Below the pieces are notes generated by a model, which saw only the letters and a program-made list of their open reading frames with translations, did not search any database and had not been told where the DNA came from. A DNA stretch of 64,000 bases from Chryseobacterium sp. 6424. Its GTDB lineage: Bacteria > Bacteroidota > Bacteroidia > Flavobacteriales > Weeksellaceae. Of this stretch, positions 44,803-64,000 are shown piece by piece (position 1 is the stretch's first letter; each line of letters opens with the position of its first letter). A program made the position numbers and the translations under genes. The DNA lies in NCBI RefSeq assembly GCF_003692615.1, contig NZ_CP023540.1, positions 806,001-870,000 of the forward strand, read 5' to 3'.

Positions 44803-45897
44803 TCATATATCAGAAAGGCGGTCGAGTGGGGACCGCACGGTACGGGTGTTTTTATCGGCGATATGGGTGTAGGCGAGGGTGGTTTTCAAGTCCTGATGCC
44901 CCATCAGTTTCTGGATGAGGGTGATATCGGTACCGCATTGCAGCAGGTGAGTGGCGTAGCTGTGGCGCAAAGAATGTATGCCGACTGTTTTTACGATGCC
45001 CGCCTTATTCATGGCGGTTTTGAACACGCTTTGTACAGTCCGGACATTGATTTGCCCGCCATACATACCTTCGAAAAGATATTCGCGTGGGTGTTCCTTC
45101 TTGTAATACGCACGGAGTTCGTGTAATATGCTTTCAGGCAGGTTGACATAGCGGTCTTTTTTGCCTTTTGCCCTAGAAATAAGTACGCGCATGGTGCCAC
45201 TGTCGATGTCCTGAATCTTCAGGTTTACGATTTCGCTCACGCGCAGGCCCATTCCGTAGCAGAGTTGGATGATGAGTTTGTGTTTGGGGTTTTCGGTTAC
45301 TTCAATAATTTTTAGAATTTCTTTTGTGTTAAGGGCTTTTGGCAGGAGCTGAGGTTTTTTAGGTCGAGGAATATCAAGGAATATTTTAGGCTGGTGCAGT
45401 ACTTTCTCGAAATAGAACTTCACTGCATTCATACGGCTGTGGATTTGATTTTCTGAAAGCTGAAGTGTCCGGTGGCAATATAAAAAGTAGCTCTGCAGTT
45501 TTTCTCTTGAAAGGCGCTCTACCGGAAACTCGCCAAGTAAGTAAAGCAGTTGCGCGAATTCTGTAGTATAGGTACGGATGGTGTTGGTAGAAAAACCTTT
45601 GAGTGTTAATTGATTTTGATAATCGGTAAACGCAGGGAGGTTTGTGGGATGAATTTTACTCAGGGCCTGTTTACCAATATTTTTGGGCGTAAGGTTACAT
45701 AATATTCTGTTCTGTTGACTGTCGGGGATATGCCAGGCCTTATTTTTTGAGGACCAACGGGCTTTTACGTTTTGGCGCAGCATGGTAATAAGTTCCTGCT
45801 CGTAAGGAAACTTAAGCCAGATTACCTCCTTTCCCTCATATTCACCTAAAGAAATTTCATACAGCAAAGGGTTGAAAACAGGTTTCGCATTTTCCAT
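44803..45897 (-). CDS. Integron-type tyrosine recombinase lacking the IntI-specific segment (364 aa)
   Basis: Catalytic residues: Arg219 in YGMGLRVSE, Lys near 244 in RAKGKKDR, His308/Arg311 in HSLRHSYATHLL, His334 in LMGHQDLKTT, Tyr343 in AYTHI. From Arg box to HxxR is 89 residues. I recall about 131 in IntI1 (R146 to H277) and about 96 in XerD, so the extra IntI patch that reads folded attC seems absent. The C-terminus VRSPLDRL nevertheless matches the IntI ending. Residues 1-65 are an added domain with a W...K.W.IP pattern (RWSSKNKAWHIP); the core-binding SAM-like domain spans about 85-165. Position and orientation opposite the array support its role as the integrase. Confidence 0.88.
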   Translation of the reverse strand: MENAKPVFNPLLYEISLGEYEGKEVIWLKFPYEQELITMLRQNVKARWSSKNKAWHIPDSQQNRILCNLTPKNIGKQALSKIHPTNLPAFTDYQNQLTLKGFSTNTIRTYTTEFAQLLYLLGEFPVERLSREKLQSYFLYCHRTLQLSENQIHSRMNAVKFYFEKVLHQPKIFLDIPRPKKPQLLPKALNTKEILKIIEVTENPKHKLIIQLCYGMGLRVSEIVNLKIQDIDSGTMRVLISRAKGKKDRYVNLPESILHELRAYYKKEHPREYLFEGMYGGQINVRTVQSVFKTAMNKAGIVKTVGIHSLRHSYATHLLQCGTDITLIQKLMGHQDLKTTLAYTHIADKNTRTVRSPLDRLSDI

Positions 45898-45919
45898 AAA
45901 CTGTAAATAAATTTATATC

Positions 45920-46002
45920 ATATACGCAAATATACATTATTTGTAAGCCACTGAATCTAATGGTTTTATGGTAATTTGCAGGAATGGATTATTTGCGTAT
46001 AT
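45920..46002. repeat. 12-bp inverted repeat framing the attI region
   Basis: ATATACGCAAAT at 45920-45931 and its exact complement ATTTGCGTATAT at 45991-46002, 59 bases apart. Each arm overlaps a TATATTTG promoter box, one pointing to the integrase, one to the cassettes. Candidate integrase accessory-binding sites or a shared operator. Confidence 0.7.
45927..45934 (-). promoter_or_regulatory. -7 element of the integrase gene
   Basis: Minus-strand TATATTTG, a perfect TAnnTTTG, 29 bases before the integrase ATG (45897). It overlaps the left arm of the 12-bp inverted repeat. The -33 half is weak. Confidence 0.55.
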
Positions 46003-46005
46003 TTG
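45975..46005 (+). promoter_or_regulatory. Cassette promoter Pc inside attI
   Basis: TTTG (45975-45978), 19 bases, TATATTTG (45998-46005). Predicted start of transcription is around 46010, the very base where the first cassette is joined. It would drive whichever cassette is newest. Confidence 0.65.
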
Positions 46006-46008
46006 GGA

Positions 46009-46015
46009 GTTAGCG
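46009..46015 (+). other. attI core site
   Basis: GTTAGCG, with the cut inferred between G46009 and T46010. The bases to the right belong to cassette 1, because GTTAGCGGT is complementary to ACCGCTAAC at the left arm of attC 1 (46555-46563). The bases to the left are the fixed attI part. Confidence 0.8.
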
Positions 46016-46072
46016 GTCAGGCTAAAAAAACGTGACACAGAATAAAAACATTCAACAATTGAGTATAGAAAA

Positions 46073-46522
46073 ATGACAAGTTTAATTACGATAAGAGAAT
46101 ATGAACCAAGCGACAAAAATGATGTAATTAATTTGATTAAGTTGAATACACCAGAATTTTTCGCAACTGACGAAGAAGAAGACTTAAAAAAATATTTAGA
46201 GACCGAAAGAGAGCTATATTATGTATTACTGTATGACGAAAAAATCGTTGGTTGTGGCGGAATTAACTTTTCAGGCGACAAAACAATAGGCAAAATTAGT
46301 TGGGACATATTTCATCCTGACTATCAAGGAAAATCTTTGGGAACAAAACTATTGAAGCACAGAATTGACAAACTTAACTCAATTGACGGTATCCAAAAAA
46401 TTACTGTTAGAACTTCACAGGTTACTTACAAATTTTATGAAAAGCAAGGTTTTGAACTATTTGAAATTAAAAAAGATTATTGGGCAGATGGATTTGATAT
46501 GTACAATATGGAATACAAATAG
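46073..46522 (+). CDS. Cassette 1: GNAT acetyltransferase (149 aa)
   Basis: GNAT fold: acetyl-CoA motif A in HPDYQGKSLGTKLLKHRI (near 82-100), preceded by strand VGCGGINFSG and followed by VRTSQVTYKFYEKQGFELFEI, the typical C-terminal strand-helix. The acceptor substrate cannot be inferred; antibiotic, protein or small-amine acetylation are all possible. As the first cassette it should be the best expressed, from Pc about 70 bases upstream. Confidence 0.88.
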   Translation: MTSLITIREYEPSDKNDVINLIKLNTPEFFATDEEEDLKKYLETERELYYVLLYDEKIVGCGGINFSGDKTIGKISWDIFHPDYQGKSLGTKLLKHRIDKLNSIDGIQKITVRTSQVTYKFYEKQGFELFEIKKDYWADGFDMYNMEYK

Positions 46523-46556
46523 CACTGAAAACAAAACTGACAAAAGAAGCCCGAAC

Positions 46557-46688
46557 CGCTAACAAGGTATTGCCAAAAGCGGGGCTGAACGGCTTCGATT
46601 GGGCATTTGTGCAAGGTTCAACTTTCGTTCTTCGATTGAACTTTAGTACTAAAAATCCCCGCCTTCGGCAATACCCAAACCGTTAGCC
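46557..46688 (+). repeat. attC 1 (short class, 132 bp)
   Basis: Left end CGCTAAC (46557-46563), right end GTTAGCC (46682-46688). Inner arms AAGGTATTGCC and GGCAATACC, then GCGGGG and CCCCGC, fold into one long imperfect hairpin. The left arm ACCGCTAAC pairs with the start of cassette 1, the right arm belongs to cassette 2. Confidence 0.9.
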
Positions 46689-46696
46689 GCAATATT

Positions 46697-47536
46697 ATGA
46701 CAAAACCCCTCATAGACAAAATTCGAGAAGGAATTGAAAAATCAGGATTTCCATTAGAGATGAAAATTGGGAATATTTTACAAAATAATAATTGGAGATA
46801 TTCTATTGGTAATATATATGAGGACTTTGAAACAGGGAAATTTCGAGAATCTGATATAAGTGCTTCAAAATTGATTAATGGCATTCAAGTTGACATTTTT
46901 ATAGAATGCAAAAAATCCGTTAATAGACAAATTGTTCTTTACGCACCCAAAAATCAAAAAAAAATATTTTTAGCAAGTTCTTGGTTTAAATATTTTCCAA
47001 AGGTTAAAAAATTTTCGCTTCTTAAGCAGTTTTATGAGAACACTTCAAAGTTATTACTTTTTGATGAACAAATACCCTTTTCAAAAAGCCTAATAGTTAT
47101 GACCGGCGATAAAGTAACAGAGGAAAATATTAAATATTTAAGTTCTATAAATGGACTTATAAAACGCTCAATAAGTACTGGTCGTGATGGTTATATTGAA
47201 ACAAATTTTAGAATTTTATTTTTCTATGTCGTAATCTTCGATGGCGAATTATATCAACTATCAAGTTCTTTAACGGAAAATTTTGATTTGAAAGAGATTG
47301 ACTATGGTCAATATGAATATACTCATAAACACATTTTCAATTCTGAATTTACAAATGATAAAGATTTAATTGATACCGCAAAAATGTTAGGTGACAAATA
47401 CGTAGTTGAATTTATGAAACCAGAAATATTTGAAAATCATTTGCTTAAACTTGAAGAAAGTATTTCGAATTTTGATAATGACAAACTGAAATTTTGGGGC
47501 GATAAGTGGCCAATTGTAAATTTAAATAAAAAGTAA
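46697..47536 (+). CDS. Cassette 2: PD-(D/E)XK nuclease-like protein (279 aa)
   Basis: The N-terminal third carries a restriction-endonuclease-like pattern: GFPLEMKIGNILQNNNW (helix with Glu), YEDFETGKFRESDISASK (strand with Asp), and VDIFIECKKS (E-x-K). This order, a GW/NNW strand, RExD and ECK, is seen in orphan nuclease-like defence proteins. The rest has no motif I know. No methyltransferase shares the cassette. The ATG is only 14 bases from the cassette edge, so expression must come from upstream. Confidence 0.65.
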   Translation: MTKPLIDKIREGIEKSGFPLEMKIGNILQNNNWRYSIGNIYEDFETGKFRESDISASKLINGIQVDIFIECKKSVNRQIVLYAPKNQKKIFLASSWFKYFPKVKKFSLLKQFYENTSKLLLFDEQIPFSKSLIVMTGDKVTEENIKYLSSINGLIKRSISTGRDGYIETNFRILFFYVVIFDGELYQLSSSLTENFDLKEIDYGQYEYTHKHIFNSEFTNDKDLIDTAKMLGDKYVVEFMKPEIFENHLLKLEESISNFDNDKLKFWGDKWPIVNLNKK

Positions 47537-47542
47537 TACTGC

Positions 47543-47737
47543 GGCTAACATAGTATTTGCAAAAGGCGGGGTTGAATATTTAATAGAACCATTAGTTGCA
47601 TTTAGTCGCGCCTGCTTTTTCGTTCCACAATTTTTTTGTAGTTTAGTTCCACGAAAAAAGCATTCGCTTCGGTTGGTCAAAATTGAACCTTTCGGTTAAA
47701 TTTAGCCCGCCCTTCGCAAATACTTTTTCCGTTATAG
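47543..47737 (+). repeat. attC 2 (long class, 195 bp)
   Basis: GGCTAAC (47543-47549) to GTTATAG (47731-47737). Left arm GCGGCTAAC is complementary to GTTAGCCGC at the start of cassette 2. Inner arms TAGTATTTGC and GCAAATACT, then GGCGGG and CCCGCC. An apical stem GCTTTTTCGT/ACGAAAAAAGC is present. Confidence 0.9.
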
Positions 47738-47772
47738 GCAATGCGATTTGAGAGACTGCTAAAAATTAACGG

Positions 47773-47802
47773 TTGAACCAAAACTAAAATTTGCTATCTT
47801 TG
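47773..47802 (+). promoter_or_regulatory. Cassette-borne promoter of the EcoRV-like RM genes
   Basis: TTG (47773-47775), 19 bases, TATCTTTG (47795-47802): a full Bacteroidetes promoter inside the cassette. The ATG at 47807 starts four bases later, suggesting a leaderless mRNA. Confidence 0.7.
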
Positions 47803-47806
47803 AAGA

Positions 47807-48724
47807 ATGGATTTGAAAGAAAAAAATAAGTATAAAAAGGCATTCAAAGAAGCATTAGACAAGTTTACTGACAAACTTGAAAAATACGTTTCGACTGAAA
47901 ATGGAGATTGGTCTGTGAAAGGATTTATTGATGTTTATAAAAACATTTACACTATTTCTTCTGATACAAAAATCGTTTCCAAAATTCTTGAAATCCATAT
48001 TTTTCCACAAATTTTGCAATTTGCAGAAGAAAACGATTATAACATCATTCTTACTGAACATCAAAACTATTATCCTGATTTGACTTTTATTCACAAAAAG
48101 AATGAAGAAGTTAAATTTGCTGTTGATTTAAAAACTACATACAGAAAGAAGAATGGAATTTCGAGTTTTACACTTGGAAGTCACGGTAGTTACTTTAAAG
48201 AAAGAGATAAAAAGAAAAATATTCAATTTCCTTATAGTCAATATTTAGGACATTATTGCTTAGGTGTAATTTACACAAGAACAGATATGTCTGATGATGT
48301 TTCTGAAACAGAAATTTATCAAGTTCAAGAACTTCAAGAAGAATATGAAACTCCTAACAAAAAAGTTGGAGAAAGAGAAGTTACAACAGTTGATAATTTA
48401 AAGTCTATTACTTCAGTAATTAAAGACTTTGACTTTTTTGCTGCTGAAAAATGGAAAATTGCAAGTGATAAACAAGGTTCAGGAAATACTGCGAATATCG
48501 GTTCGACTTTAAGTATTGAAGATTTAAGAAATGAAAACGGAATTTTCAGCAAATTAGGCGAAGAATGGTTTGACGAATATTGGATAAATTATGGTTCTGC
48601 CACAATGGTTAAAGATGGCAAAACAACTAAAATAACCAACTTAAAAGACTTTTTAGAATTTAAAGGTCAAACAGATTTATGGGATAAAATTGTAACAAGA
48701 ATTTCTAAAAATTCAAAGAAATGA
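47807..48724 (+). CDS. Cassette 3a: EcoRV-like type II restriction endonuclease (305 aa)
   Basis: The PD-(D/E)XK site reads NYYPDLTF (Asp91) and FAVDLKTTYR (Asp107, Lys109). Spacing 16 and 2 is identical to EcoRV Asp74, Asp90, Lys92, and the neighbouring words match what I recall of EcoRV (HYPDFT, DIKTTYT, FTLGGY vs FTLGSH, and GSGNT-NIGS near 225). The protein is about 60 residues longer than EcoRV, with the extra length around residues 165-215. It probably cleaves an EcoRV-like site (GATATC is a guess). It overlaps the methyltransferase by ATGA, and carries its own promoter, unusual for a cassette. Confidence 0.85.
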   Translation: MDLKEKNKYKKAFKEALDKFTDKLEKYVSTENGDWSVKGFIDVYKNIYTISSDTKIVSKILEIHIFPQILQFAEENDYNIILTEHQNYYPDLTFIHKKNEEVKFAVDLKTTYRKKNGISSFTLGSHGSYFKERDKKKNIQFPYSQYLGHYCLGVIYTRTDMSDDVSETEIYQVQELQEEYETPNKKVGEREVTTVDNLKSITSVIKDFDFFAAEKWKIASDKQGSGNTANIGSTLSIEDLRNENGIFSKLGEEWFDEYWINYGSATMVKDGKTTKITNLKDFLEFKGQTDLWDKIVTRISKNSKK

Positions 48725-49710
48725 AAGTAATTGTTCCACCTATAAAAAGTCAAGGTATTAAAACCAAGCTCGTTCCTTGGATTAAAGATTTAGTTGCTAT
48801 TGCCGACCAAAAAGGAAAATGGATTGAACCTTTTTTGGGAACAGGTGTTGTGGCTTTTAATTCTGGTTACAAAAAAGCAATTCTGAACGACACAAATCCG
48901 CATATTATAAATTTTTACAAAAGTGTTCAAATAAAAAAGATTACAGCACCTTTGATGAAACAACATCTTGAAATTGAAGGAAAGTTGTTAAGTGAAGCAG
49001 AAAATAACGGGTATGAACATTATTTAGAGGTACGTTCTCGTTTTAACAGCGGAGAGTTCTCTCCTCTCGATTTTATCTTTCTTTCAAGAGCGGGTTTTAA
49101 TGGAATGATGCGTTTTAATAATAAAGGGCATTGGAATATTCCTTTTTGTAAAAAACCTGAAAGATTTGCTCAAGCATATATCACCAAAATAACAAATCAA
49201 GTTTCGACCGTATCTCAAATTATACAGCCAGAACCCGATTGGACTTTTTATAACAAATCATTTGCTGAAATCATCCCTTTAGCAACAGAGAACGACATCA
49301 TTTATTGTGACCCTCCTTATTATGGAAGACACGTAGATTATTATAATGGTTGGACAGAAAAAGATGAAGAACATTTATTTACGTTATTATCTGAAACTAA
49401 AGCAAAATTTATTCTTTCAACTTGGCATCATAACGACTGGAGAGAAAACGAAATGATAAACAAGTTTTGGAATAAATTCAACATTATTACCAAAGACCAT
49501 TTTTATCATAACGGAGGAAGTATTGAAAACAGAAGAACTGTTGTAGAAGCATTAGTTTGTAATTTTGATGTAGCAAATATTGAACAACATAATCACGGAC
49601 AAAAAGAAAAATATAAGACCAAACAATTAGAATTTGAATGGCTTACTGAAAAGTCCGCACTGCCTATAACATCGGTTTTGCAAAAGAGCGGGTTAAATGC
49701 AAAATTGTAA
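48721..49710 (+). CDS. Cassette 3b: Dam-family adenine methyltransferase (329 aa)
   Basis: D12-class N6-adenine methyltransferase. KSQGIKTKLVPWI and IEPFLGTGVVAFN at the N-terminus form the AdoMet site, FLSRAGFNGMMRFN is the family middle motif, and DPPYYGRH (near 196) is catalytic motif IV. It protects the site of the EcoRV-like enzyme, with which it overlaps by four bases. The last ~15 codons run into attC 3: the stop at 49708-49710 lies 47 bases past the left edge of the site, so the C-terminal tail is encoded by recombination-site DNA. Confidence 0.92.
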   Translation: MKVIVPPIKSQGIKTKLVPWIKDLVAIADQKGKWIEPFLGTGVVAFNSGYKKAILNDTNPHIINFYKSVQIKKITAPLMKQHLEIEGKLLSEAENNGYEHYLEVRSRFNSGEFSPLDFIFLSRAGFNGMMRFNNKGHWNIPFCKKPERFAQAYITKITNQVSTVSQIIQPEPDWTFYNKSFAEIIPLATENDIIYCDPPYYGRHVDYYNGWTEKDEEHLFTLLSETKAKFILSTWHHNDWRENEMINKFWNKFNIITKDHFYHNGGSIENRRTVVEALVCNFDVANIEQHNHGQKEKYKTKQLEFEWLTEKSALPITSVLQKSGLNAKL

Positions 49711-49857
49711 GTTTGTGCTTTTTATCCGCAAAAACCATTTTTTATTTGCTCTTTTTTGTAATTTAGCAAATAAGAAAATGGTTTTGCTTACGTTGATGCA
49801 AAGTTGAAAGTTTCGCCTTTCTAATCCGCTCCTTCGCAAAGCCCTTTTCCGTTGTAG
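49664..49857 (+). repeat. attC 3 (long class, 194 bp), overlapping a coding end
   Basis: CTATAAC (49664-49670) to GTTGTAG (49851-49857). TGCCTATAAC is complementary to GTTATAGGCA at the start of cassette 3. Nested apical stem: AAAACCATTTT, TATTTGCT and their complements around a loop with TTTTTTGTAATTT. Confidence 0.92.
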
Positions 49858-49969
49858 GCAATTTTTGCAGACCGCTTAAACAAAACAGACAAATAATTGT
49901 TTAACCTAAAAATCGGACAAGCCGAACACCGAGTTAAGAAGTAGGCCAAACAAATAATTTTAGTTTAAA

Positions 49970-50719
49970 ATGAAGGTAAAAATTTTAGCGACATCGCTTC
50001 TAACATTGACCATTCTTTCTTGTAATCAAGGAGAAAAAACTGAAAGACAAAAGGAAGTTTCAGCAGAAAAAAAAACAGAGCAGACACAAGTCGTAAATCA
50101 CGTTATGACTAAGGAGCAACAGGCAGCTTTGACACCAGACGCTGTCGTTCAAGACTTTATTGAAGGGAATAAACGCTTTCATTCAGGTGTTAAAACAGTA
50201 AGAGACCACAGCGAACAAATACGTAAAGCTGTACCTGGACAATTCCCAAAGGCAGTAGTTTTAAGTTGCTTAGACAGTCGTGTTCCTGTAGAAGATGTTT
50301 TTGACCAAGGTTTGGGCGACATTTTTGTAGGTAGAGTAGCAGGTAACTTTGTTAACGAAGACCTATTAGGAAGTATGGAGTTTGCATGTAAAGTGGCAGG
50401 TGCGAAACTAATTTTAGTAATGGGTCATCAGCATTGTGGTGCTGTAAAAGGTGCAATTGACGATGTAAAGTTGGGTAACATTACTGCAATGCTTGCCAAG
50501 ATAAAACCTGCTGTGCAAATGAGTCAAGATTTTGCAGGAGAAAAAACGAGTAAAAACGATGAGTTTGTAGAGCACGTTTCAGAAAATAATGTAAAATATG
50601 CCATGCAGCAAATCAGAGAAAAAAGCCCTATTTTGAAAGAAATGGAAAACAAAGGCGAAATCAAAATTGTAGGTGCTTTTTATCGTTTAACGGACGGAAC
50701 TCTTGAATTTGTAAAGTAA
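49970..50719 (+). CDS. Cassette 4a: beta-carbonic anhydrase lipoprotein (249 aa)
   Basis: Interconverts CO2 and bicarbonate. Lipoprotein signal (LLTLTILSCNQG, lipobox LSC near residue 18), a charged linker, then the beta-CA core: zinc ligands in VLSCLDSRVPVED (Cys-x-Asp-x-Arg) and VMGHQHCGAVKGA (His-x-x-Cys), all intact. As a lipoprotein it would work in the periplasm or on the outer membrane. It precedes a DUF2490 gene by one base, so both are one transcription unit in one cassette. Confidence 0.93.
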   Translation: MKVKILATSLLTLTILSCNQGEKTERQKEVSAEKKTEQTQVVNHVMTKEQQAALTPDAVVQDFIEGNKRFHSGVKTVRDHSEQIRKAVPGQFPKAVVLSCLDSRVPVEDVFDQGLGDIFVGRVAGNFVNEDLLGSMEFACKVAGAKLILVMGHQHCGAVKGAIDDVKLGNITAMLAKIKPAVQMSQDFAGEKTSKNDEFVEHVSENNVKYAMQQIREKSPILKEMENKGEIKIVGAFYRLTDGTLEFVK

Positions 50720-50720
50720 A

Positions 50721-51503
50721 ATGCAGAGAAACATATTGATTATACTTGTTTTGACTTGTTTCGTTAGCAATAATGTTTCAGGTCAAAACAATCGTATAAA
50801 TACAAACGAAAATATTGGTTGGTACAACTATTTTGGCACTTTCAAATTGTCAAAAAAAATGGGTTTACACACCGAGTATCAGTGGCGTAGAGATAATTAC
50901 ATTACAAATTGGCAACAAAGCCTTTTGCGAGTAGGTGTAAATTACCAACTTAACCCAAGAGTATTGTTTAGGGCAGGTTATGCTTGGATAGAAACGTTTC
51001 CCTATGGCGAAATACCTATTAACGGATTTGGTAGAGATTTTACTGAACATAGAATCTTTGAGATGGTGCAGCTTTCGCACAAAGAAGGAATTTTAGATTT
51101 TTCTCACCGTTTTATGTTAGAGCAAAGATTTGTAGGAAGATATAGTTCAAGCAATGTAGAGAAAGAAGATGAATTTCCGTTACTAAACAGATTGAGATAT
51201 ATGGTAAGACTTCAATTACCCTTGAAAGGAAAAGAAATAATAGACAAAACCCCTTATTTAGCTCTTTATGACGAGATTTTTATTGGCTTTGGAGAGAATG
51301 TAAATGCAAACATTTTTGACCAAAATAGAATTGGTGTTTTATTGGGTTATCGCTTCAACAAAAATGTAAGAATTGAAGGTGGGTATCTAAATCAAATCAT
51401 TCAATTTGGCAGACAAATAAATGGACAGAATGTTTTTCAAAACAACAATGGCTTAATTCTAAACGCCAACTTTAATATTGACCTGACCCAGAAATCAAAT
51501 TAA
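50721..51503 (+). CDS. Cassette 4b: DUF2490 outer-membrane-like protein (260 aa)
   Basis: Signal peptide (about 1-21, ending NVSG-Q), then repeated amphipathic strands with W-Y-N-Y-F and QWRRDNYITNWQQSLLRVG motifs and a final strand NGLILNANFNID, typical of DUF2490 beta-barrel proteins. Function unknown. It starts one base after the carbonic anhydrase stop, so a joint role at the outer membrane is likely. Confidence 0.8.
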   Translation: MQRNILIILVLTCFVSNNVSGQNNRINTNENIGWYNYFGTFKLSKKMGLHTEYQWRRDNYITNWQQSLLRVGVNYQLNPRVLFRAGYAWIETFPYGEIPINGFGRDFTEHRIFEMVQLSHKEGILDFSHRFMLEQRFVGRYSSSNVEKEDEFPLLNRLRYMVRLQLPLKGKEIIDKTPYLALYDEIFIGFGENVNANIFDQNRIGVLLGYRFNKNVRIEGGYLNQIIQFGRQINGQNVFQNNNGLILNANFNIDLTQKSN

Positions 51504-56535: not shown

Positions 56536-57840
56536 ATGAAATTGAAAATTTTTGTAATATTTTTATTCGCAACAATAAATTTATTCGGACAAGTTACCAA
56601 GAAAAACTTTGTTTATTCCGATATTCAGAATTTTTGGAACGCTTACGACAAAATTAGAACAACAAAAGATTCTACACAACAATATAACTATCTAAATTCA
56701 CTTTTTCTCGATAAAGGAACTGAGGGGTTAAAAGCAATAATGGGAGTAAGAAATTACAACGCAAAATCTTATATTGATGCTATAAACAACTATCCAAAGT
56801 TTTGGAATTCTGTAAGAAATAACACTTTGCGGGCAAAAGATGTTTCAAAAAAAATTGAGAAAAATATAATCAAATTCGGAAAATTATATCCACAAACAAA
56901 GCCTGCAAAAATTTACTTTACTATTGGTGCATTAAGAACAAACGGAACAACTTTATCCGATAAAATTCTTATTGGAAGTGAACTCGCATTTGCAGACGCA
57001 CAAACTGAAACCTCTGAATTCCCTAATTATTTTTCTCACTTATCCAATTATTTCAAGTCGAATCCCATTAAGCATATTGTTTTTTTAAATGTTCACGAGT
57101 ATATACACACACAACAAAAAAATACCATTGGAAAAAATTTATTGGAACAGTGTATTATTGAAGGAGTTGCCGAATTCCTTGCAGAGTTATCGACAAAACA
57201 AAATTCGACTGCACCTGCAATTTCTTATGGAAAACAAAACAACCAAAAGGTTAGAGAAGTTTTTGAAAAACAAATGTTCAATAAAAATAATGGATTTTGG
57301 CTATATTCCAGTGCAGAAAATGAATTCCAAACCCGAGATTTAGGTTATTATATTGGCTATGCTATTTGCGAAAGTTTTTATAAAAGATTTGACAATAAAA
57401 AGCAAGCAATTAAAGAAATGATTGAACTTGATTATGAAAATCCAAAATCTGTATCTTCGTTTGTTGACAAATCTAAATATTTCTCAAACTCCTTTGACGA
57501 ACTGAAAAATAATTATGAACAATCCCAACCAAAAGTTTTGGGAATTAAAGAATTTGAGAACGGAAATAAAAATGTTAACTCTAAACTTCAACAATTCACT
57601 ATTTTATTCTCCCAACCGATGAATAAAAATTACAGAAGTTTTGAATTTGGACCATTAGGAGAAAAAAATGTATTAAAAATTTCAAAAGTCATCGGCTTTT
57701 CAGAAGATGGAAAATCATTAACAATTGAGACAAAATTAGAACCTAATAAAGTATATCAACTATTAGTAAATGACGGATTTAGAAACTTGTCGGGAACGAG
57801 TTTGAAACCTTATCTTATTGACATTAAAACAACTGAATAA
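56536..57840 (+). CDS. Cassette 9a: secreted HExxH metallopeptidase-like protein (434 aa)
   Basis: Signal peptide (FVIFLFATINLFG-Q). Middle region: IKHIVFLNVHEYIHTQQ contains an HExxH zinc motif (near 187-191), followed by IEGVAEFLAELS, which offers the third ligand Glu, a gluzincin-like or DUF2268-like arrangement. The C-terminal ~110 residues look like an SbsA/Big_5 Ig-like domain (FTILFSQPMNKNY ... LVNDGFRNLSG). Substrate unknown. The cassette shows no promoter. Confidence 0.72.
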   Translation: MKLKIFVIFLFATINLFGQVTKKNFVYSDIQNFWNAYDKIRTTKDSTQQYNYLNSLFLDKGTEGLKAIMGVRNYNAKSYIDAINNYPKFWNSVRNNTLRAKDVSKKIEKNIIKFGKLYPQTKPAKIYFTIGALRTNGTTLSDKILIGSELAFADAQTETSEFPNYFSHLSNYFKSNPIKHIVFLNVHEYIHTQQKNTIGKNLLEQCIIEGVAEFLAELSTKQNSTAPAISYGKQNNQKVREVFEKQMFNKNNGFWLYSSAENEFQTRDLGYYIGYAICESFYKRFDNKKQAIKEMIELDYENPKSVSSFVDKSKYFSNSFDELKNNYEQSQPKVLGIKEFENGNKNVNSKLQQFTILFSQPMNKNYRSFEFGPLGEKNVLKISKVIGFSEDGKSLTIETKLEPNKVYQLLVNDGFRNLSGTSLKPYLIDIKTTE

Positions 57841-57898
57841 AAGTCATATTTTAAAAAACCCGTCAAATCAAGAAAAAAATAAAAAATTTAAAAAATAT

Positions 57899-58465
57899 AT
57901 GAAGAAAACAATTTTACTTTCAGGAATTTTATTTATTTCAACATTTTCTAATGCTCAAACTTCAAATTCACAAAACTCTACAGTTGAAAAAAGTGTAACG
58001 GGAGCGCAAATTGGACTTTTTGGTCTTGACATTTATAATGAAGCAAGACTTGCGGACAAAGTTGCGCTAAGAAGTGAAGTAAGTTTATTTCCTGCAGTTT
58101 GGGGCGGAGATATGTATGCGAAAACAGGATTTGCTTTTTATCCTGCATTAACTCTTCAACCTAAATATTATTACAATATTTCAAAAAGAGCCGAAAATGG
58201 GAAAAACACAAAAAATAATTCCGCTAATTATTTTGGTTTGCAAGTAAGATATATTCCGAATTGGTTTGTAATATCAAATGACAAAAATTTGAGTTTAACA
58301 AATCAACTGAATTTTATTCCAACTTTTGGAATAAGAAGAAATTTTTCTGAAAATTTCAACTATGAATTTAGAGCAGGATTTGGTTATGGAACAACTATAG
58401 GAAATGATAAAAATACTTCGGGGGGAATTCTTGACTTGAGTATAAAAATTGGATACGACTTTTAA
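57899..58465 (+). CDS. Cassette 9b: small outer-membrane beta-barrel protein (188 aa)
   Basis: Signal peptide (MKKTILLSGILFISTFSNA-Q). Alternating strands follow: GAQIGLFGLDIYNEARLADKVALRSEVSLFPA, LTLQPKYYYNISKRA, NYFGLQVRYIPN and a final YEFRAGFGYGTTIGN ... LDLSIKIGYDF ending in Phe, as in Bacteroidetes outer-membrane barrel proteins. The start at 57899 is the signal-peptide Met; an earlier in-frame start at 57818 overlaps the previous gene. Confidence 0.75.
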   Translation: MKKTILLSGILFISTFSNAQTSNSQNSTVEKSVTGAQIGLFGLDIYNEARLADKVALRSEVSLFPAVWGGDMYAKTGFAFYPALTLQPKYYYNISKRAENGKNTKNNSANYFGLQVRYIPNWFVISNDKNLSLTNQLNFIPTFGIRRNFSENFNYEFRAGFGYGTTIGNDKNTSGGILDLSIKIGYDF

Positions 58466-58482
58466 AAATATCTGAGAAAAAC

Positions 58483-58560
58483 AGCAGATAACAGATTCTA
58501 TGAAATGCAGGGTTGAAGGTATAATAGTAAGTGTCTGCACAAGTGGGCAAATAAAAGCAC
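58483..58560 (+). repeat. Truncated attC left half inside cassette 9
   Basis: AGCAGATAAC (58483-58492) followed by GATTCTATGAAATGCAGGGTTGAAGG resembles the left half of an attC, but no right half follows before the complete attC 9. It would have paired with a cassette starting GTTATCTGCT, which is missing. Sign of two fused cassettes. Confidence 0.65.
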
Positions 58561-58563
58561 TGC

Positions 58564-58758
58564 CTACAACATTGTATTGGCAAAATGCGGGGTTAAATGT
58601 ATAATAGAAAGACTTGAAAAATTTAGCCGCCGCTATTTTTCCATTCCACTAAATTTTTGTAAGTTCGTTACATGGAAAAAATATCGGCTCCGTTTGGTCT
58701 GAACTTGAACATTCGTTCAAATTTAGCCCGCACTTCGCCAATACTTTTTCCGTTGTAT
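58564..58758 (+). repeat. attC 9 (long class, 195 bp)
   Basis: CTACAAC (58564-58570) to GTTGTAT (58752-58758). TGCCTACAAC is complementary to GTTGTAGGCA at the start of cassette 9 (56494). Strongly similar to attC 5 in the left inner arm. Confidence 0.92.
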
Positions 58759-58835
58759 GCAATATTTTCCAAACTCTCGCCCTGAATCCAAAATTTTTAC
58801 GATATTTGATTCCAAATAAAAGATGGTATTTGGTA

Positions 58836-59714
58836 ATGGAAATATTTACTGACATAAAACTTGGAGACAGCACGGAAATTTTAAAAAAACTTCCTGACAA
58901 CTCTGTTGACTTAATTTTCACTTCACCACCTTACGCAGACCAAAGAAAAAATACATACGGCGGAATTCACCCAGATAAATATGTTGATTGGTTTTTACCA
59001 ATTTCAAAAGAATTATTGAGAGTTTTGAAACCTACAGGAACTTTTGTTTTAAACATTAAAGAAAAAGTTGTTGATGGAGAAAGAAGCACTTATGTTATGG
59101 AACTTATAATCGAAATGAGAAAACAAGGTTGGCTTTGGACTGAAGAATTTATTTGGCACAAAAAAAACTCATTTCCTGGAAAATGGCCAAATCGTTTTCG
59201 TGATTCCTGGGAAAGATTGTTGCAATTCAATAAAGAGAAAAAATTCTCAATGTATCAAGACCAAGTTATGGTTCCTATGGGAGATTGGGCAAAATCACGC
59301 CTTAAAAACTTAAGCGAAACCGACAAAGTAAGGGACGAATCAAAAGTAGGAAGTGGATTTGGAAAAAAAATTTCAAATTGGGTAGACAGAGAAATGGCTT
59401 ATCCAACAAATGTCCTACACCTTGCAACAGAATGTAATAATAAAAATCATAGTGCCGCTTTTCCAGAAGCGTTACCGGAATGGTTTATTAAATTATTTAC
59501 AAAAGAGGAAGATGTAGTTTTAGATCCATTTATGGGTTCTGGAACTACGAATTTTGTTGCACAAAGAATGAGCAGAAACTCGATTGGTATTGAAATCCTT
59601 CCAGAATATTTTAATATGGTAAAAAAACAGTTGGAACCTGTTAAACTTGTTTTATTTGATCCCCACACTAAGTATGAAAAAACTAAATATAATGGAAGTC
59701 ACGCAGTTCGTTGA
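58836..59714 (+). CDS. Cassette 10a: DNA methyltransferase, N4-cytosine or N6-adenine (292 aa)
   Basis: Beta-class order: catalytic TSPPYADQR near residue 29, then the AdoMet motif DPFMGSGTTNFVAQR near 228. TSPPY is most common in N4-cytosine enzymes; an adenine target is possible. IKLGDSTEILKKLPDNSVDLIFTSPPY is the typical N-terminus. ATG 58836 is preferred; a TTG at 58806 would add ten residues. It overlaps the start of the endonuclease gene by 23 bases, forming an RM pair in one cassette. Confidence 0.92.
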   Translation: MEIFTDIKLGDSTEILKKLPDNSVDLIFTSPPYADQRKNTYGGIHPDKYVDWFLPISKELLRVLKPTGTFVLNIKEKVVDGERSTYVMELIIEMRKQGWLWTEEFIWHKKNSFPGKWPNRFRDSWERLLQFNKEKKFSMYQDQVMVPMGDWAKSRLKNLSETDKVRDESKVGSGFGKKISNWVDREMAYPTNVLHLATECNNKNHSAAFPEALPEWFIKLFTKEEDVVLDPFMGSGTTNFVAQRMSRNSIGIEILPEYFNMVKKQLEPVKLVLFDPHTKYEKTKYNGSHAVR

Positions 59715-60408
59715 GCGAAATATTGGAACTTTTCACCAAAAAAGAATTGATCGATTAAAGAATCTAAAATTAAAAACGGTTCTTCAAAAGAAAAACCCTT
59801 ATTTGTTCAAAGCCAAAAACTTGATGACTGCAAGTGAAATTGTGCAGGGAATTACAGATGCGTTTATTTCGTCAAATGAAGAAACAATTTTTGGAGATTG
59901 GCTTGAAGGACTTGCAATTTTTATTAATGAAAAAGTTTACAATGGAAGAAAGTCGGGAATTGCAAACATAGATTTGGAATTTGATAAAGACAATGTTCGC
60001 TATATTGTAAATATTAAATCTGGTCCAAATTGGGGTAACAGCAGTCAAGTAGCGAAAATGAAAGCAGATTTTAAAACCGCCCAGAAAACCTTAAGAACAA
60101 GCAATTCAAATTTAATTGTTGTTTCGGTTAATGGTTGCTGTTACGGAAAAGAAAATGTTCCTGATAAAGGTGATTATTTCAAATATTGCGGACAAGAATT
60201 CTGGGAATTTATTTCTGGAAACAAAAATCTTTACACAGACATAATTGAACCGTTAGGACACAAAGCAAAAGAGCGAAACGATGAATTTGCAGAATCTTAT
60301 GCAAAAATGTTAAACAAGTTTACCGCAGAATTTATTACTGATTTTTGCAAAAAGAATGGAGAAATTGACTGGCTAAAACTTGTGGAATTTAATTCTAAGA
60401 AAAAGTAA
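59692..60408 (+). CDS. Cassette 10b: PmeII-like type II restriction endonuclease (238 aa)
   Basis: The block KKNPYLFKAKN...TASEIVQG, EETIFGDWLEGLAIFI, SGIANIDLEFD...YIVNIKSGPNWGNSSQ and VNGCCYGK matches what I remember of the PmeII family. Asp in IDLEFD and the NIKSG lysine are the likely PD-(D/E)XK residues. Start: ATG 59692 (MEVTQFVERNIGTFHQ) fits the family; ATG 59674 is an alternative. It lies downstream of and overlaps its cognate methylase, and ends 13 bases before the attC 10 core. Confidence 0.85.
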   Translation: MEVTQFVERNIGTFHQKRIDRLKNLKLKTVLQKKNPYLFKAKNLMTASEIVQGITDAFISSNEETIFGDWLEGLAIFINEKVYNGRKSGIANIDLEFDKDNVRYIVNIKSGPNWGNSSQVAKMKADFKTAQKTLRTSNSNLIVVSVNGCCYGKENVPDKGDYFKYCGQEFWEFISGNKNLYTDIIEPLGHKAKERNDEFAESYAKMLNKFTAEFITDFCKKNGEIDWLKLVEFNSKKK

Positions 60409-60421
60409 GTAATAATACTGC

Positions 60422-60615
60422 ATACAACAGTGTATTGGCAAAAGACGGGGTGAATACTGTCTTTGAGGATTCGGTTAACAAAATCCGCAAAAATGCTTTT
60501 CATATCTCTATTATCCGTAATTTAGAAATCTGAAAAGCATTTTGCTCAGGCTCGGTCTTCCTTTGAAATTGTCAGCAAAGTAGCCCGTCCTTCGCCAATA
60601 CTTTTTCCGTTATCT
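60422..60615 (+). repeat. attC 10 (long class, 194 bp)
   Basis: ATACAAC (60422-60428) to GTTATCT (60609-60615). TGCATACAAC is complementary to GTTGTATGCA at the start of cassette 10. Apical stem AAAATGCTTTTCA/TGAAAAGCATTTT. Confidence 0.92.
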
Positions 60616-60643
60616 GTAATCGCAACCAAATTCACGTTCTAAA

Positions 60644-61258
60644 ATGAAATTAAACTTTTTGAAAATTGGTTTTGGCATTGGAATAATTCCTATCCTTGGA
60701 GTAATTTTTTTATTTACAATTTTTTATTTTAGCAGAGAAATATTTGCACTAGACATTAACATCGATGGTATTGGATTTCTATTCTTAATTTTAAGTTTGA
60801 TCCTACTTCTATTAGGAATAATATTAATAATAATATCAATTTTCGCACAAAAAAATGTAAAAAAATCTATTATTGCTCTTCTTATAATTTTGACAACGGT
60901 ACTTATCATTTTTGAGATTACAAAATTACATGCTAAAATTTCCAGCAGAGGATACATCGAATTTGTTAACAAATCTGGAATTGACTTTCACGATGTTCAA
61001 ATTGAAGAACCGAATGAACATCACTTTTTCTCAAAATTAAAAAATAATAAAACACAAATTCTTCATTTTTATCCTGATTATGGAACTTATAACAAAAAAG
61101 AACTTGCAGGAATGAGTGAAAACTATCTACTACTTCAAACAACTTACGATAATTTTCTTAAAATCAAAATTCCAATTATTCATCCGGGGGAAATTCATAA
61201 AATTATCATTGATGAAAACCTGCAATTAACTGATTATCATCTTAATAAAATTGAATGA
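60644..61258 (+). CDS. Cassette 11: membrane protein of unknown function (204 aa)
   Basis: Three hydrophobic helices in the first 100 residues (about 7-28, 42-70, 74-92; very rich in Ile and Leu), then a soluble domain (about 100-204) with SSRGYIEFVNKSGIDFHDVQI and IHPGEIHKIIID. The soluble part may be a small beta domain outside the membrane. No family recognised. Confidence 0.7.
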   Translation: MKLNFLKIGFGIGIIPILGVIFLFTIFYFSREIFALDINIDGIGFLFLILSLILLLLGIILIIISIFAQKNVKKSIIALLIILTTVLIIFEITKLHAKISSRGYIEFVNKSGIDFHDVQIEEPNEHHFFSKLKNNKTQILHFYPDYGTYNKKELAGMSENYLLLQTTYDNFLKIKIPIIHPGEIHKIIIDENLQLTDYHLNKIE

Positions 61259-61269
61259 AATGCGACTAC

Positions 61270-61465
61270 AGATAACATGGGTTTTGCAAGATGCGGGGTT
61301 GAAGGAAATCTCAGAGAAATTCTAGAAAATACCCGCAAAAAACTTTTCCATTTTTTAGTTTTTTTGTAATTTTAAAAAATGGAAAAAGTTTTTGCTAGCG
61401 TTCTGTTCTCCTCTCCACTTCCTGTTGCAGTAGCCCGCACCTCGCAAAGCCCTTTTCCGTTAGCC
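61270..61465 (+). repeat. attC 11 (long class, 196 bp)
   Basis: AGATAAC (61270-61276) to GTTAGCC (61459-61465). TACAGATAAC is complementary to GTTATCTGTA at the start of cassette 11. Body almost identical to attC 7 (shared AACATGGGTTTTGCAAGA and GCGGGGTTGAAGGAAATC blocks) although the genes are unrelated. Confidence 0.92.
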
Positions 61466-61466
61466 G

Positions 61467-61805
61467 TCATTGTAAACGACCATCCTGCATAATAAATTTT
61501 TCTTGAAGTTTTCCCCATTCAAAAAGACGTTCTAAAATGTCAACTAAAATTTTTCCATTATCAGTCAAATAATATTCAACCTTTGGAATTTTGGTATCAT
61601 ATTGTTTGCGTATAATAATGTTATCTTTCTCCATTTCCTTTAATACTTGTGCTAACATCTTAATAGAAATCCCAGAAATTTGTTTCCGAATTTCCCCGAA
61701 CCTCAAAACTGAATGAAGATGCAGCCTCCATATAATTCTGCCCTTGTGTTTACCCCCGATTTGAGAAAAAGCATATTCAAGCGGGCATTTTTCTACATTT
61801 TCCAT
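61467..61805 (-). CDS. Cassette 12a: HxlR-family transcriptional regulator, antisense to the array (112 aa)
   Basis: HxlR-type winged helix: conserved Cys in EKCPLEYAFSQIGGKHKGRIIWRL, recognition helix around RFGEIRKQISGISIKMLAQVLKEME, wing with IIIRKQYDTKIPKVEYYLT. Full family length. It is the only complete gene of the array on the minus strand; its stop codon begins eight bases from the cassette edge. Divergent from the hydrolase gene, whose promoter it probably controls. Confidence 0.92.
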   Translation of the reverse strand: MENVEKCPLEYAFSQIGGKHKGRIIWRLHLHSVLRFGEIRKQISGISIKMLAQVLKEMEKDNIIIRKQYDTKIPKVEYYLTDNGKILVDILERLFEWGKLQEKFIMQDGRLQ

Positions 61806-61825
61806 ACTAACTTTTTGGTTACTAA

Positions 61826-61856
61826 TTGTTTCATAGTTATCTCTTGGTTAATTTAG
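61826..61856 (+). promoter_or_regulatory. Candidate promoter of the hydrolase gene in cassette 12
   Basis: TTG (61826-61828), 20 bases, TAATTTAG (61849-61856, one mismatch to TAnnTTTG). Two TTGGTTA words (near 61815 and 61844) flank it and could be HxlR sites. Confidence 0.4.
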
Positions 61857-61869
61857 CAAAAAAATACAA

Positions 61870-62721
61870 ATGCTTAAAATAATAAATCTTTGTTCAGTAT
61901 TAGTAATATTATTCACCATTAATTGTAAATCTATAGAAATCATGGAAAAAGAAAAAAAGATTGACGGCAAGCTATCTTATATAGATGCAGGTCGGGGAGC
62001 AAAAACTATCGTTTTTCTTCACGGAGCGTTTATGAATAAAGAAATATGGGTTCCGCAAATAGAAACCCTTAAAAAAAGTTACAGGGTAATTGCTGTAGAC
62101 TTACCTGGGCATGGAAATTCAGATGTGAAAGATAATGAAGTTTCAATTCAAGATTTTGGAAAAAAAATTTCAGAACTCTTAGAAAGCCTGAAAGCAAATA
62201 ATGTAATTCTAGTTGGCCATTCCATTGGCGCCGATGTATGTTTAGAAATTTATAGCAATTACAAAGAGGATATCATTGGGTTTGTTGCAGTAGATTATTT
62301 TAAAAATATTGGCCAAAGCTTGCCTAAATCAGAAGTTGACAAAATCATCGATCAAATGAACTCAAATTATCCAGCAAGCCTGCAATATTACGTTGAAAAC
62401 AATTTGGTAACTAAAGATACAAGTCTTGCTTTAAAGAGAAAGATTGAAAATAATTTTATTAATAGCAATAAAAAATTTGGTATTGAATTAAATAAGAAAG
62501 TTTTTGAATATAGTGAAATGGAAAGTGAAAATTTAAAGAAAATTAACTCTAAAGTATATTTTATTAATGTAGATTATTTTCCTACTGACGAAAAAACTCT
62601 GGAAAAAAAATTGAAAGATAATTTTGAATTTGTAAGTATACACGGAACTTCACATTATCCAATGCTTGAAAATCCTGAAGTGTTTAATAAATTGTTAGAA
62701 GAAATAATTAATAAAATTTAG
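61870..62721 (+). CDS. Cassette 12b: alpha/beta hydrolase, probable lipoprotein (283 aa)
   Basis: Lipobox-like FTINC near residue 19. Alpha/beta hydrolase fold: oxyanion strand VFLHGAFMNKEIW, VDLPGHGNS, nucleophile Ser in LVGHSIGAD (near 119), and catalytic His in HGTSHYPMLENPE near 260. The acid is probably Asp in the strand VYFINVDYFPT. Esterase or lactone-type substrate unknown. Paired with a divergent HxlR regulator, so perhaps an inducible detoxification unit. Confidence 0.85.
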   Translation: MLKIINLCSVLVILFTINCKSIEIMEKEKKIDGKLSYIDAGRGAKTIVFLHGAFMNKEIWVPQIETLKKSYRVIAVDLPGHGNSDVKDNEVSIQDFGKKISELLESLKANNVILVGHSIGADVCLEIYSNYKEDIIGFVAVDYFKNIGQSLPKSEVDKIIDQMNSNYPASLQYYVENNLVTKDTSLALKRKIENNFINSNKKFGIELNKKVFEYSEMESENLKKINSKVYFINVDYFPTDEKTLEKKLKDNFEFVSIHGTSHYPMLENPEVFNKLLEEIINKI

Positions 62722-62736
62722 CCTGATACAACGAAC

Positions 62737-62929
62737 GGCTAACATTGTATTTGCAAAAGGCTGGGTTGAATATATAATAGAAAAACCCGATGCATTTAGT
62801 CGCAACTTGCTTTTCATATTGTATTTTTTTGTAATTTAACAATCTGAAAAAGCAATTTGCTTCGTTCGGTCGAAATTGAACTTTTCGTCCAATTTAGCCC
62901 GCCCTTCGCAAATACTTTTTCCGTTAGCT
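62737..62929 (+). repeat. attC 12 (long class, 193 bp)
   Basis: GGCTAAC (62737-62743) to GTTAGCT (62923-62929). ACGGCTAAC is complementary to GTTAGCCGT at the start of cassette 12. Right inner arm CGCCCTTCGCAAATAC is shared with attC 2. Confidence 0.92.
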
Positions 62930-62954
62930 GTAAGTTTCCAAAAAAACCGTATAA

Positions 62955-63368
62955 ATGAAGAAAATATTTACATTGTTTATTTTATTAACAACTTTAATTT
63001 CTTGCTCAATAAATGATAAATCTCTTGAAAACTATATTTCTACTGAAATAGAAAATTCAAATAAATTAAATCTTTCTAACTATCATGAGTTTGATTGGGA
63101 TTCTATAATAATTCTTGGTCCATATTCTAATTTGGCAAAAATTGAGAAGGAAAAGAATATTGATTTATCTAATGTGAATAATTCTATTGAAAGTTTGGAT
63201 AGTATAAACCTTATAATATTTTTGAAAGACAGTAAAGCTGTGAAATATTCTGAAATTAGTAGAAATATTACAGATTTTGACACTTACCAAGAAATTATTA
63301 AAAAGGAAAACGCAAAATTTATTTTGGACGCAAATCAAAATAATTCGAAAATTCTAAAAATAGAATAA
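62955..63368 (+). CDS. Cassette 13: lipoprotein of unknown function, copy 2 (137 aa)
   Basis: Translated product is identical to that of 55887-56300. The whole 639-bp cassette, including its non-coding leader and attC, is repeated. Same lipobox LISC. Confidence 0.75.
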   Translation: MKKIFTLFILLTTLISCSINDKSLENYISTEIENSNKLNLSNYHEFDWDSIIILGPYSNLAKIEKEKNIDLSNVNNSIESLDSINLIIFLKDSKAVKYSEISRNITDFDTYQEIIKKENAKFILDANQNNSKILKIE

Positions 63369-63375
63369 AACCTAC

Positions 63376-63568
63376 AGCTAACAAGGGTTTGGCGCAATGG
63401 CGGGTTAAGACTAAAATTGAAGTATCGGCTTTCTATTTCGCAAAAAGCCAATTATATTGACTTTTTTCTTTAATTTATTCAATTAATTGTCTTTTGCTTA
63501 CTGTGTCGCTAAATTGAAACTTTTCGCTTCAATTTCCGCCACTGACGCCAAGCCCCGCAACGTTAGCT
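63376..63568 (+). repeat. attC 13 (long class, 193 bp)
   Basis: AGCTAAC (63376-63382) to GTTAGCT (63562-63568). Same as attC 8 except for the bases after GTT, which here belong to cassette 14 (GTTAGCTGCG). Confidence 0.92.
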
Positions 63569-63595
63569 GCGATTATAAAACCAACCTGCATAAAA

Positions 63596-64000
63596 ATGAA
63601 AAAACTTTTGACATTATTATTTTTTGTGACAACACTTAATCTTTTTGCACAAAATCAACGTTACGAAAATCTGAATATTTACAAAACTAAATTTGACGAT
63701 GCAATTCCTGTATTAAATGTAGCAACATTTCATATGGGAGAAACTTCAGACGCAAACTCAACGGATTTTGATGAAAACGACAAAAAAAATCAGCAAGAAA
63801 TTAAAAAATTAGCTAGGTTATTGGCTGAATTTAAACCCACAATAATTGTTATTGAAGATTTACCTAAAAACGATAGCATAAGACAAATTTCATATTCAGA
63901 TTATTTAAAAAATCCATTGAAAAAGTTTATAAATCCTGACGAAAGAGAATTGTTAGCTTATGAAGTTGGAAGACTTAGCGGAGCAAAAAAGATTTATGGA
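63596..64000 (+). CDS. Cassette 14: DUF5694-like secreted protein, cut by the window end (135+ aa)
   Basis: Signal peptide MKKLLTLLFFVTTLNLFA-Q. VLNVATFHMGE (near 37) followed by QQEIKKLARLLAEFKPTIIVIEDLP matches the start of DUF5694, a TraB/EreA-like fold of unknown activity. The frame is open to the last base. The downstream attC must lie outside the window. Confidence 0.75.
   Translation, partial: MKKLLTLLFFVTTLNLFAQNQRYENLNIYKTKFDDAIPVLNVATFHMGETSDANSTDFDENDKKNQQEIKKLARLLAEFKPTIIVIEDLPKNDSIRQISYSDYLKNPLKKFINPDERELLAYEVGRLSGAKKIYG

Follow-up and report, generated by a model that had tools for sequence, protein, structure and literature searches.

The window analyzed here is a stretch of 64,000 nucleotides from Chryseobacterium sp. 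6424 (C1:806001-870000), whose genome comprises 2,586,303 bases in one contig. It contains the first part of an array of cassettes, which carry single genes or small operons and end in attC-like hairpin sites, and beside it a tyrosine recombinase gene pointing away from the array. An earlier note on this DNA had called the region an integron with 13 complete cassettes and sites of 132-196 bases in a Bacteroidetes-type chromosome. The 13 cassettes were confirmed, from 46010 to 63562, and the site lengths were correct for the window. The array as a whole is larger: it begins at G 46009 and has 34 sites, the last one at C1:894471, past the window end. The features are as follows, in window coordinates.

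44803-45897, minus strand: tyrosine recombinase, 364 amino acids (PF00589, 134.5 bits), transcribed away from the array, with an extra N-terminal domain of about 85 amino acids
45992-46024, plus strand: attI-like site TTTGCGTATATTTGGGA^GTTAGCGG; the first cassette begins at G 46009
46010-46682, plus strand: cassette 1, GNAT acetyltransferase (46073-46522), class 2 arms
46557-46688, minus strand: attC-like site 1, bottom strand folds
46683-47731, plus strand: cassette 2, 279-amino-acid protein (46697-47536), no Pfam match
47543-47737, minus strand: attC-like site 2
47732-49851, plus strand: cassette 3, EcoRV-type endonuclease (47807-48724) and Dam-family methyltransferase (48721-49710)
49664-49857, minus strand: attC-like site 3
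49852-51698, plus strand: cassette 4, beta-carbonic anhydrase (49970-50719) and DUF2490 protein (50721-51503)
51510-51704, minus strand: attC-like site 4
51699-52687, plus strand: cassette 5, subclass B1 metallo-beta-lactamase, 275 bits (cut-off 200), ATG probably at 51735
52501-52693, minus strand: attC-like site 5
52688-55001, plus strand: cassette 6, 100-amino-acid repeat protein (52811-53113) and GmrSD-type protein (53132-54859)
54876-55007, minus strand: attC-like site 6
55002-55855, plus strand: cassette 7, 171-amino-acid protein (55140-55655), no Pfam match
55666-55861, minus strand: attC-like site 7
55856-56494, plus strand: cassette 8, 137-amino-acid protein (55887-56300), no Pfam match, identical to cassette 13
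56308-56500, minus strand: attC-like site 8, one bulged base
56495-58752, plus strand: cassette 9, DUF2268-like protease (56536-57840) and 187-amino-acid protein (57902-58465)
58564-58758, minus strand: attC-like site 9
58753-60609, plus strand: cassette 10, N4/N6 DNA methylase (58839-59714) and EcoO109I-type endonuclease (59647-60408)
60422-60615, minus strand: attC-like site 10
60610-61459, plus strand: cassette 11, 204-amino-acid protein (60644-61258), no Pfam match
61270-61465, minus strand: attC-like site 11
61460-62923, plus strand: cassette 12, HxlR regulator (61467-61805, minus strand) and alpha/beta hydrolase (61870-62721), class 2 arms
62737-62929, minus strand: attC-like site 12
62924-63562, plus strand: cassette 13, identical copy of cassette 8 with other neighbours
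63376-63568, minus strand: attC-like site 13
63563-64000, plus strand: cassette 14, DUF5694 protein, cut by the window end; sites 14-34 continue in the genome

The cassettes are bounded at G^TT and their ends follow a rule. An arm has 15 nucleotides, and the opening 15 bases of a cassette are the reverse complement of that cassette's own terminal arm, with a break at position 11 or a small loop. All 34 array cassettes obey it. Class 1 (31/34, one further miss per side being tolerated in the call) has ten pairs, one mismatch and four pairs, and on the top strand the mismatch is always A at the start against C at the end, which on the bottom strand is a T.G wobble. Class 2 (3/34) has nine pairs, a 2x3 internal loop and four pairs. 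On the first list of 30 sites, to which four were later added, the per-base match was 26-30/30 at bases 1-10, 0/30 at base 11 and 26-29/30 at bases 12-15; at base 16 it was at background (8/30 versus 9.1 in the control). Two cassettes of that list that seemed to break the rule, numbers 20 and 29, were really two and three cassettes. A site placed at 48110 by the automatic finder was judged false, and the same program missed 56494 and 63562 because of a bulge.

The own-end complementarity reported by the earlier note for all 13 window cassettes was thus real, although its figure of 8-10 bases was too low for the arm: the uninterrupted match alone is 9 bases in cassettes 1 and 12 and 10 in the other 11. 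Its view that chance could not produce the rule also proved sound. Random re-pairing of starts and ends satisfied the rule in only 4.3%. The summed uninterrupted match was 119 for the window cassettes, versus a re-pairing mean of 56 and maximum of 95, and 269 for the 30 sites, for which 100,000 re-pairings averaged 130 and never exceeded 173; the start of cassette 1 was off by 3 bases in this test, which lowers the observed sum. Chance is excluded as the source of the arm complementarity. In other arrays 148/183 cassettes fell into class 1 or class 2, and 138/140 of those in class 1 had the A and the C. The remaining cassettes comprised 2 with position 11 paired, 8 with the inner arm only, and 25 with no complementarity, some of which are missed or false sites.

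How much of this rule is peculiar to the present arrays was judged against a small control sample of arrays located by genuine IntI genes in other classes of the phylum. Four stretches and R388 were used, and the control rests on the 15/29 consecutive pairs, from three of these, that passed a core test (at least 6/7), a selection that inflates columns 1-7. In canonical cassettes the complementarity to the own end reached base 10-11 or so (base 10, 0.87; base 11, 0.67) and fell off over bases 12-15 (0.47, 0.40, 0.20 and 0.27), and no position had a fixed mismatch. Strict criteria for canonical attC gave almost no sites in the 17 control stretches searched, and looser ones did no better than chance in most. 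Since canonical ends pair to about 10-11 bases, the first ten bases follow the rule already familiar from integrons, and what lies beyond them is particular to the present system. One competing explanation is an ordinary integron, with ordinary attC sites and an IntI that merely diverged or secondarily lost its specific insertion. The canonical first ten bases of the G^TT end rule favour it, while the interrupted 15-nucleotide arm was not found in the canonical control.

The sites are attC-like, folding as single strands with a conserved structure. A consensus built from 25 sites gives an inner stem of 18 pairs, and two-sided changes occur at 11 of these. The earlier note had proposed folding the bottom strands; when reconstituted sites were folded, the bottom strand was the more stable in 28/28, with z values of -6.3 to -11.7 versus shuffled sequences (simple shuffles, 50 per site; 26/28 sites had the right cassette start and two a wrong partner). 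The consensus fold has no conserved one-sided bulge in the stem. With a lenient aligner, extra left-arm bases appeared in 15/34 array sites versus 24/24 canonical sites, so that the two kinds were not cleanly separated. No Rfam family matched the sites at E 1 within 44000-64000.

Comparison of arrays shows that the cassettes are mobile. Cassettes 8 and 13 are identical to the base between different neighbours, and the identity ends within 6 and 3 bases of the G. Among 217 cassettes of the present and other arrays there were 37 pairs at least 85% identical over 90% of the interior. Their right flanks were unrelated in 36/37 and their left flanks in 35/35 assessable cases. Because some cassettes belong to more than one pair, the 37 do not count as independent events; 14/37 are between genomes, including one cassette shared by genomes G056 and L046 whose interior of 881 bases is 100% identical. 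Since the flanks are unrelated around near-identical cassettes, we have high confidence, as far as sequence comparison can give it, that each cassette moves as a whole, with its cuts at G^TT. The same pairs bear out the gain and reordering at this point, which the earlier note wished to see checked in related genomes. The repeats could be a degenerate relic, once mobile and now inherited in fixed order, a view to which the 25/183 pairs without complementarity lend something. This is highly improbable, given the identical cassettes 8 and 13, the interior shared by G056 and L046, the intact arms in 34/34 cassettes and the intact reading frame of the integrase.

A separate observation concerns a near-identical 394-base cassette present in three copies, two in tandem (L009:6569-6962 and L010:2557-3344, cassettes 20, 30 and 31). 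No open reading frame was listed inside it at cut-offs of 100 and 110 amino acids.

The recombinase scored below the curated cut-offs of four models: the integron-integrase model TIGR02249 (184.6 bits versus 265), the archaeal XerA model NF040815 (208 versus 220), and the Xer models TIGR02224 (165 versus 335) and TIGR02225 (158 versus 330). Residues R219, K246, H308, R311, H334 and Y343, which we take to be the active site by the pattern RKHRH-Y, are invariant in 26 aligned sequences, the window enzyme included. Alignment and spacing showed that the IntI-specific insertion is absent. The distance from the KDR motif to the next strand was 23 residues in 114/114 measured relatives (6/120 unmeasured). 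In IntI it was 54 residues in 96/105, 27 in 7 and longer in 2 (15/120 unmeasured; all taken from the nearest matches of IntI1). The extra N-terminal domain was recognized by a simple pattern in 59/120 relatives. An AlphaFold model had a mean predicted local distance difference test score (pLDDT) of 81 and a predicted template modelling score (pTM) of 0.48, so its domain arrangement is not to be trusted. Among structure matches archaeal XerA (4a8e) came first by Z (22.9), followed by IntI, and the Foldseek E-value put IntI 2a3v first.

In a tree of 53 rows, 30 array enzymes formed a clade (100/99) and 13 IntI a separate clade (100/100), outside which the window enzyme lies. IS91-linked and plasmid recombinases were nearest to the array clade, and all these together stood apart from XerA/XerD at 100/96. 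Seven near-duplicate rows and one interrupted IntI had been dropped; only 13 IntI were present, and the deeper order is limited by long branches of several outgroups. The nearest named relatives of the integrase are Kaistella and Weeksellaceae metagenome proteins (78% identity), which agrees with the Bacteroidetes-type chromosome recognized earlier. Strains of Weeksellaceae (Kaistella, Halpernia, Chryseobacterium and Cloacibacterium) have homologues at 56-66% identity, and two further full-length Xer-like matches lie in the genome itself at 32% and 27%. A member of the enzyme clade on a Treponema-labelled metagenome contig (L064) groups with one from Dysgonamonadaceae, either by transfer or through a binning error.

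These data bear directly on the ordinary integron. It draws support from the tail SP[LFMVA][DE], common to 117/120 relatives and 100/120 IntI, from the grouping of IntI and array enzymes apart from XerA/XerD, and from a survey that reportedly has, in its integron-like subgroup, members whose insertion is not conserved (PMC8138268). The array enzymes are not nested in IntI, the two clades being separate, and their 23-residue spacing is uniform where nearly all IntI have 54; we consider this explanation unlikely. Because the insertion is absent and the clades are distinct, the enzyme was not filed as an IntI family member. The word integron used in the earlier note is right for the mode of working (array, integrase, attI-like site, hairpin sites and movement at G^TTR), but as a family label it is wrong or at least unproven, the enzyme not being IntI by model, insertion or tree and the interrupted arm being foreign to canonical controls.

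The integrase gene is also linked to the sites by position. The interval between the gene and cassette 1 contains TTTGCGTATATTTGGGA^GTTA, and a relaxed attI-like motif lay at most 300 bases from the start codon in 14/31 loci. Where the start of the first cassette matched its own end at 11/14 positions or more (15 loci), the attI-like site was 110-214 bp from the integrase start; judged by motif and position, a conserved attI-like site thus appears to adjoin the integrase gene. Among named loci, 22/30 could be used for a count of neighbourhoods (L067-L070, with poor or partial matches, were omitted, and four loci had <300 bases of room). A site lay within 3 kb on the divergent side of the integrase gene in 18/22, two of which (L049 and L053) have a sole site at most 252 bp from the start codon, too near for it to be the end of a cassette. 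Two loci, a Cytophagales contig (L065) and a Chryseobacterium plasmid (L092), have sites on the opposite side of the recombinase, in a same-direction layout.

The distribution of enzyme and sites was examined in 296 genomes of the family and 247 of the phylum, the genome studied here being included in both. A close enzyme was found in 68/296 family genomes (E 1e-70) and 3/247 phylum genomes (E 1e-80), and the site model matched in 195/296 and 84/247. At least 5 site matches occurred in 57/68 family genomes with the integrase versus 44/228 without it, with at most 8 candidates scored per genome and kinship ignored. Canonical IntI above the cut-off was present in 0/296 family genomes. Since the first search for IntI gave no positive among its control genomes, that search by itself cannot establish absence; a control came from the phylum search, in which 70/247 genomes exceeded the cut-off, 69/70 of them from other classes. 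The site model also matches some of the genomes with canonical IntI and may therefore pick up ordinary attC.

We looked closely at 18 phylum genomes, picked for many or strong site matches. Two had the close enzyme and 13/16 others a diverged homologue (E 7.7e-48 or better), which in 8/13 genomes lay on the same contig, at most 12 kb from a listed site; 3/16 had no homologue at E 1e-25. Stretches from 13 of the 18 genomes contained 87 consecutive site pairs, which with orientation taken by best fit gave 29 in class 1 (28 with the top-strand A and C), 7 in class 2, 5 with the inner arm only and 46 with nothing at the looser cut-off.

The sequence shows an array, cassette ends that obey the arm rule, an attI-like site, a covarying hairpin, cassettes that move as units and a link to an integrase. 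The locus is quite probably an integron-like system that is active or was so until recently, and the tyrosine recombinase running it would be no IntI but a member of the sister group of IntI. The enzyme would cut at G^TT and recombine one folded strand of a cassette hairpin site either with the double-stranded attI-like site next to the integrase gene or with another hairpin site. The window enzyme would be the catalyst and the bottom strand the strand used, two roles that we assign with moderate confidence. Strand choice may be helped by the wobble (G.T) or loop that is fixed in the arm at positions 10-12, which would take the place of the extrahelical bases of canonical attC.

Several observations weigh against this reading. 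The preference for bottom-strand folding follows from A.C versus G.T pairs and so is no independent evidence of strand use. The spacing is also short in 7/105 measured IntI relatives, and the insertion, called essential, is not fully conserved in the integron-like subgroup of PMC8138268. At 4/22 named loci no divergent-side site lay within 10 kb, and 1/68 integrase-bearing genomes had no site match. Sites occur in 128/228 family genomes without a close enzyme copy, and in the phylum 84/247 genomes have sites but 3 the close enzyme (E 1e-80). The many genomes with sites and no close copy of the enzyme would fit an array moved by another enzyme, either the host XerC/XerD pair or IntI in trans, to which the neighbouring recombinase is incidental, and integration of the phage CTXphi is a known case of Xer enzymes recombining folded single strands (PMC4792948). 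Yet the gene stands on the same side and in the same orientation beside sites in 18/22 loci, the attI-like site lies between them in 15, diverged homologues lie near listed sites in 8/13 genomes, and the family genomes have no IntI above the cut-off. We regard movement by another enzyme as decidedly improbable and retain the neighbouring recombinase as the probable catalyst.

The system proposed here resembles canonical integrons in its divergent integrase, attI-like site, hairpin attC sites, G^TT cut and complementary cassette ends, and in its single-gene or operon cassettes that are duplicated and exchanged. It differs in a recombinase of a separate clade, with an extra N-terminal domain and without the IntI-specific insertion, and in sites with a 15-nucleotide arm, a fixed interruption at 10-12 and no conserved one-sided extra stem bases. 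XerC, XerD and XerA are chromosome-dimer enzymes that act on dif. They share the catalytic fold without the insertion, but the relatives of the window enzyme adjoin cassette sites. CTXphi integration by XerCD likewise uses a folded single strand without extrahelical bases (PMC4792948), but CTXphi has no array, dedicated enzyme or cassettes. IS91/ISCR-associated recombinases, such as those by tet(X3) on Acinetobacter plasmids, fall near the array clade and are 45% identical over 236 residues; they differ in being shorter and in adjoining an IS91-family transposase, with no such site in the stretch read. The recombinase by tet(X3) and an IS91-type element on one Acinetobacter plasmid (L093), a short relative of the window integrase, is an example.

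Resistance genes are found in cassettes of the same kind on plasmids. In both Riemerella pRA0511 and a plasmid of Bacteroides xylanisolvens, tet(X2) lies in a 1327-base cassette whose arms match at 14/14 positions and have the fixed mismatch; the cassettes of catB, ere(D) and aadS have the same arm pattern, and erm(F) fits class 2. On a Flagellimonas plasmid such a cassette contains erm(F), next to a recombinase with 40% identity to the window enzyme; one 14/14 cassette was also found on a Chryseobacterium plasmid whose recombinase is 38% identical. No intact cassette pair was seen in the Acinetobacter, Sinorhizobium, Pontibacter, Salmonella and Chryseobacterium oryzae plasmid stretches. Repeats DR1-DR3 of Riemerella anatipestifer, left unexplained in PMC4481100, include the 217-bp DR3 repeats, which flank ereD and are present on pRA0511. 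An attC-like fold downstream of aph(3')-IVb accompanies homology-independent gene uptake (PMC13148043). The plasmid pRA0511 carries sites of the present kind, and DR1-DR3 and the aph(3')-IVb segment are likened to them by description only. The portions of these two accounts that we used name no integrase.

Side observations on the window concern the genes carried. The metallo-beta-lactamase of cassette 5 is nearest to CHM (425 bits, under the CHM cut-off of 475). The leader of cassette 6 (52758-52790) matches the Rfam DUF805b RNA (41.4 bits versus a gathering score of 35.6). Two complete type II restriction-modification pairs are carried as cassettes, EcoRV-type with Dam-family (47807-49710) and EcoO109I-type with N4/N6 (58839-60408). 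Beside the integrase, a gene for a secreted dehydrogenase-like protein (42969-44370) appears to be broken into two reading frames, as judged by eye from the list of open reading frames.

The IntI-specific domain is counted among the defining traits of integrons and is required by IntegronFinder (PMC9668308), and the insertion is described as necessary for integron recombination (PMC9668308, PMC8138268). Integrons have been detected in Bacteroidota (PMC9668308), intI genes of the Bacteroidetes/Chlorobi group were chosen for their additional domain (PMC2426708), and one complete integron is given for Bacteroidetes proper, in Salinibacter ruber (PMC9024848). The string 'Bacteroid' occurs nowhere in the main text of PMC8352920. 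Among the titles and abstract starts listed in searches of the open-licence literature, preprints being outside this scope and the longer results being listed in part (20 of 67 and 15 of 184), none described the present system; prior reports are possible. Surveys that require the insertion should miss the present enzyme, which may help explain the single complete Bacteroidetes integron in PMC9024848. The integron-like subgroup of PMC8138268 may hold such enzymes. What we describe looks like an overlooked sister system of integrons.

A 2016 proposal holds that gaining the insertion permitted recognition of folded single strands (PMC4792948), and an array system without the insertion makes it testable by comparison. 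We lean towards a broader interpretation, in which there would be a second integron class in Bacteroidota and beyond. Its recombinases, sister group of IntI, would never have had the insertion, its hairpins would be read by the interrupted outer arm and not by extrahelical bases, and the mobile cassettes with tet(X2), ere(D), aadS, catB and erm(F) would belong to it. If so, folded single-strand recombination would predate the IntI insertion or have arisen apart from it. The system offers a possible mechanism for the homology-independent uptake in Riemerella that the relevant part of PMC13148043 leaves open, and for the assembly of resistance genes, tet(X2) among them, in Flavobacteriia and Bacteroides.

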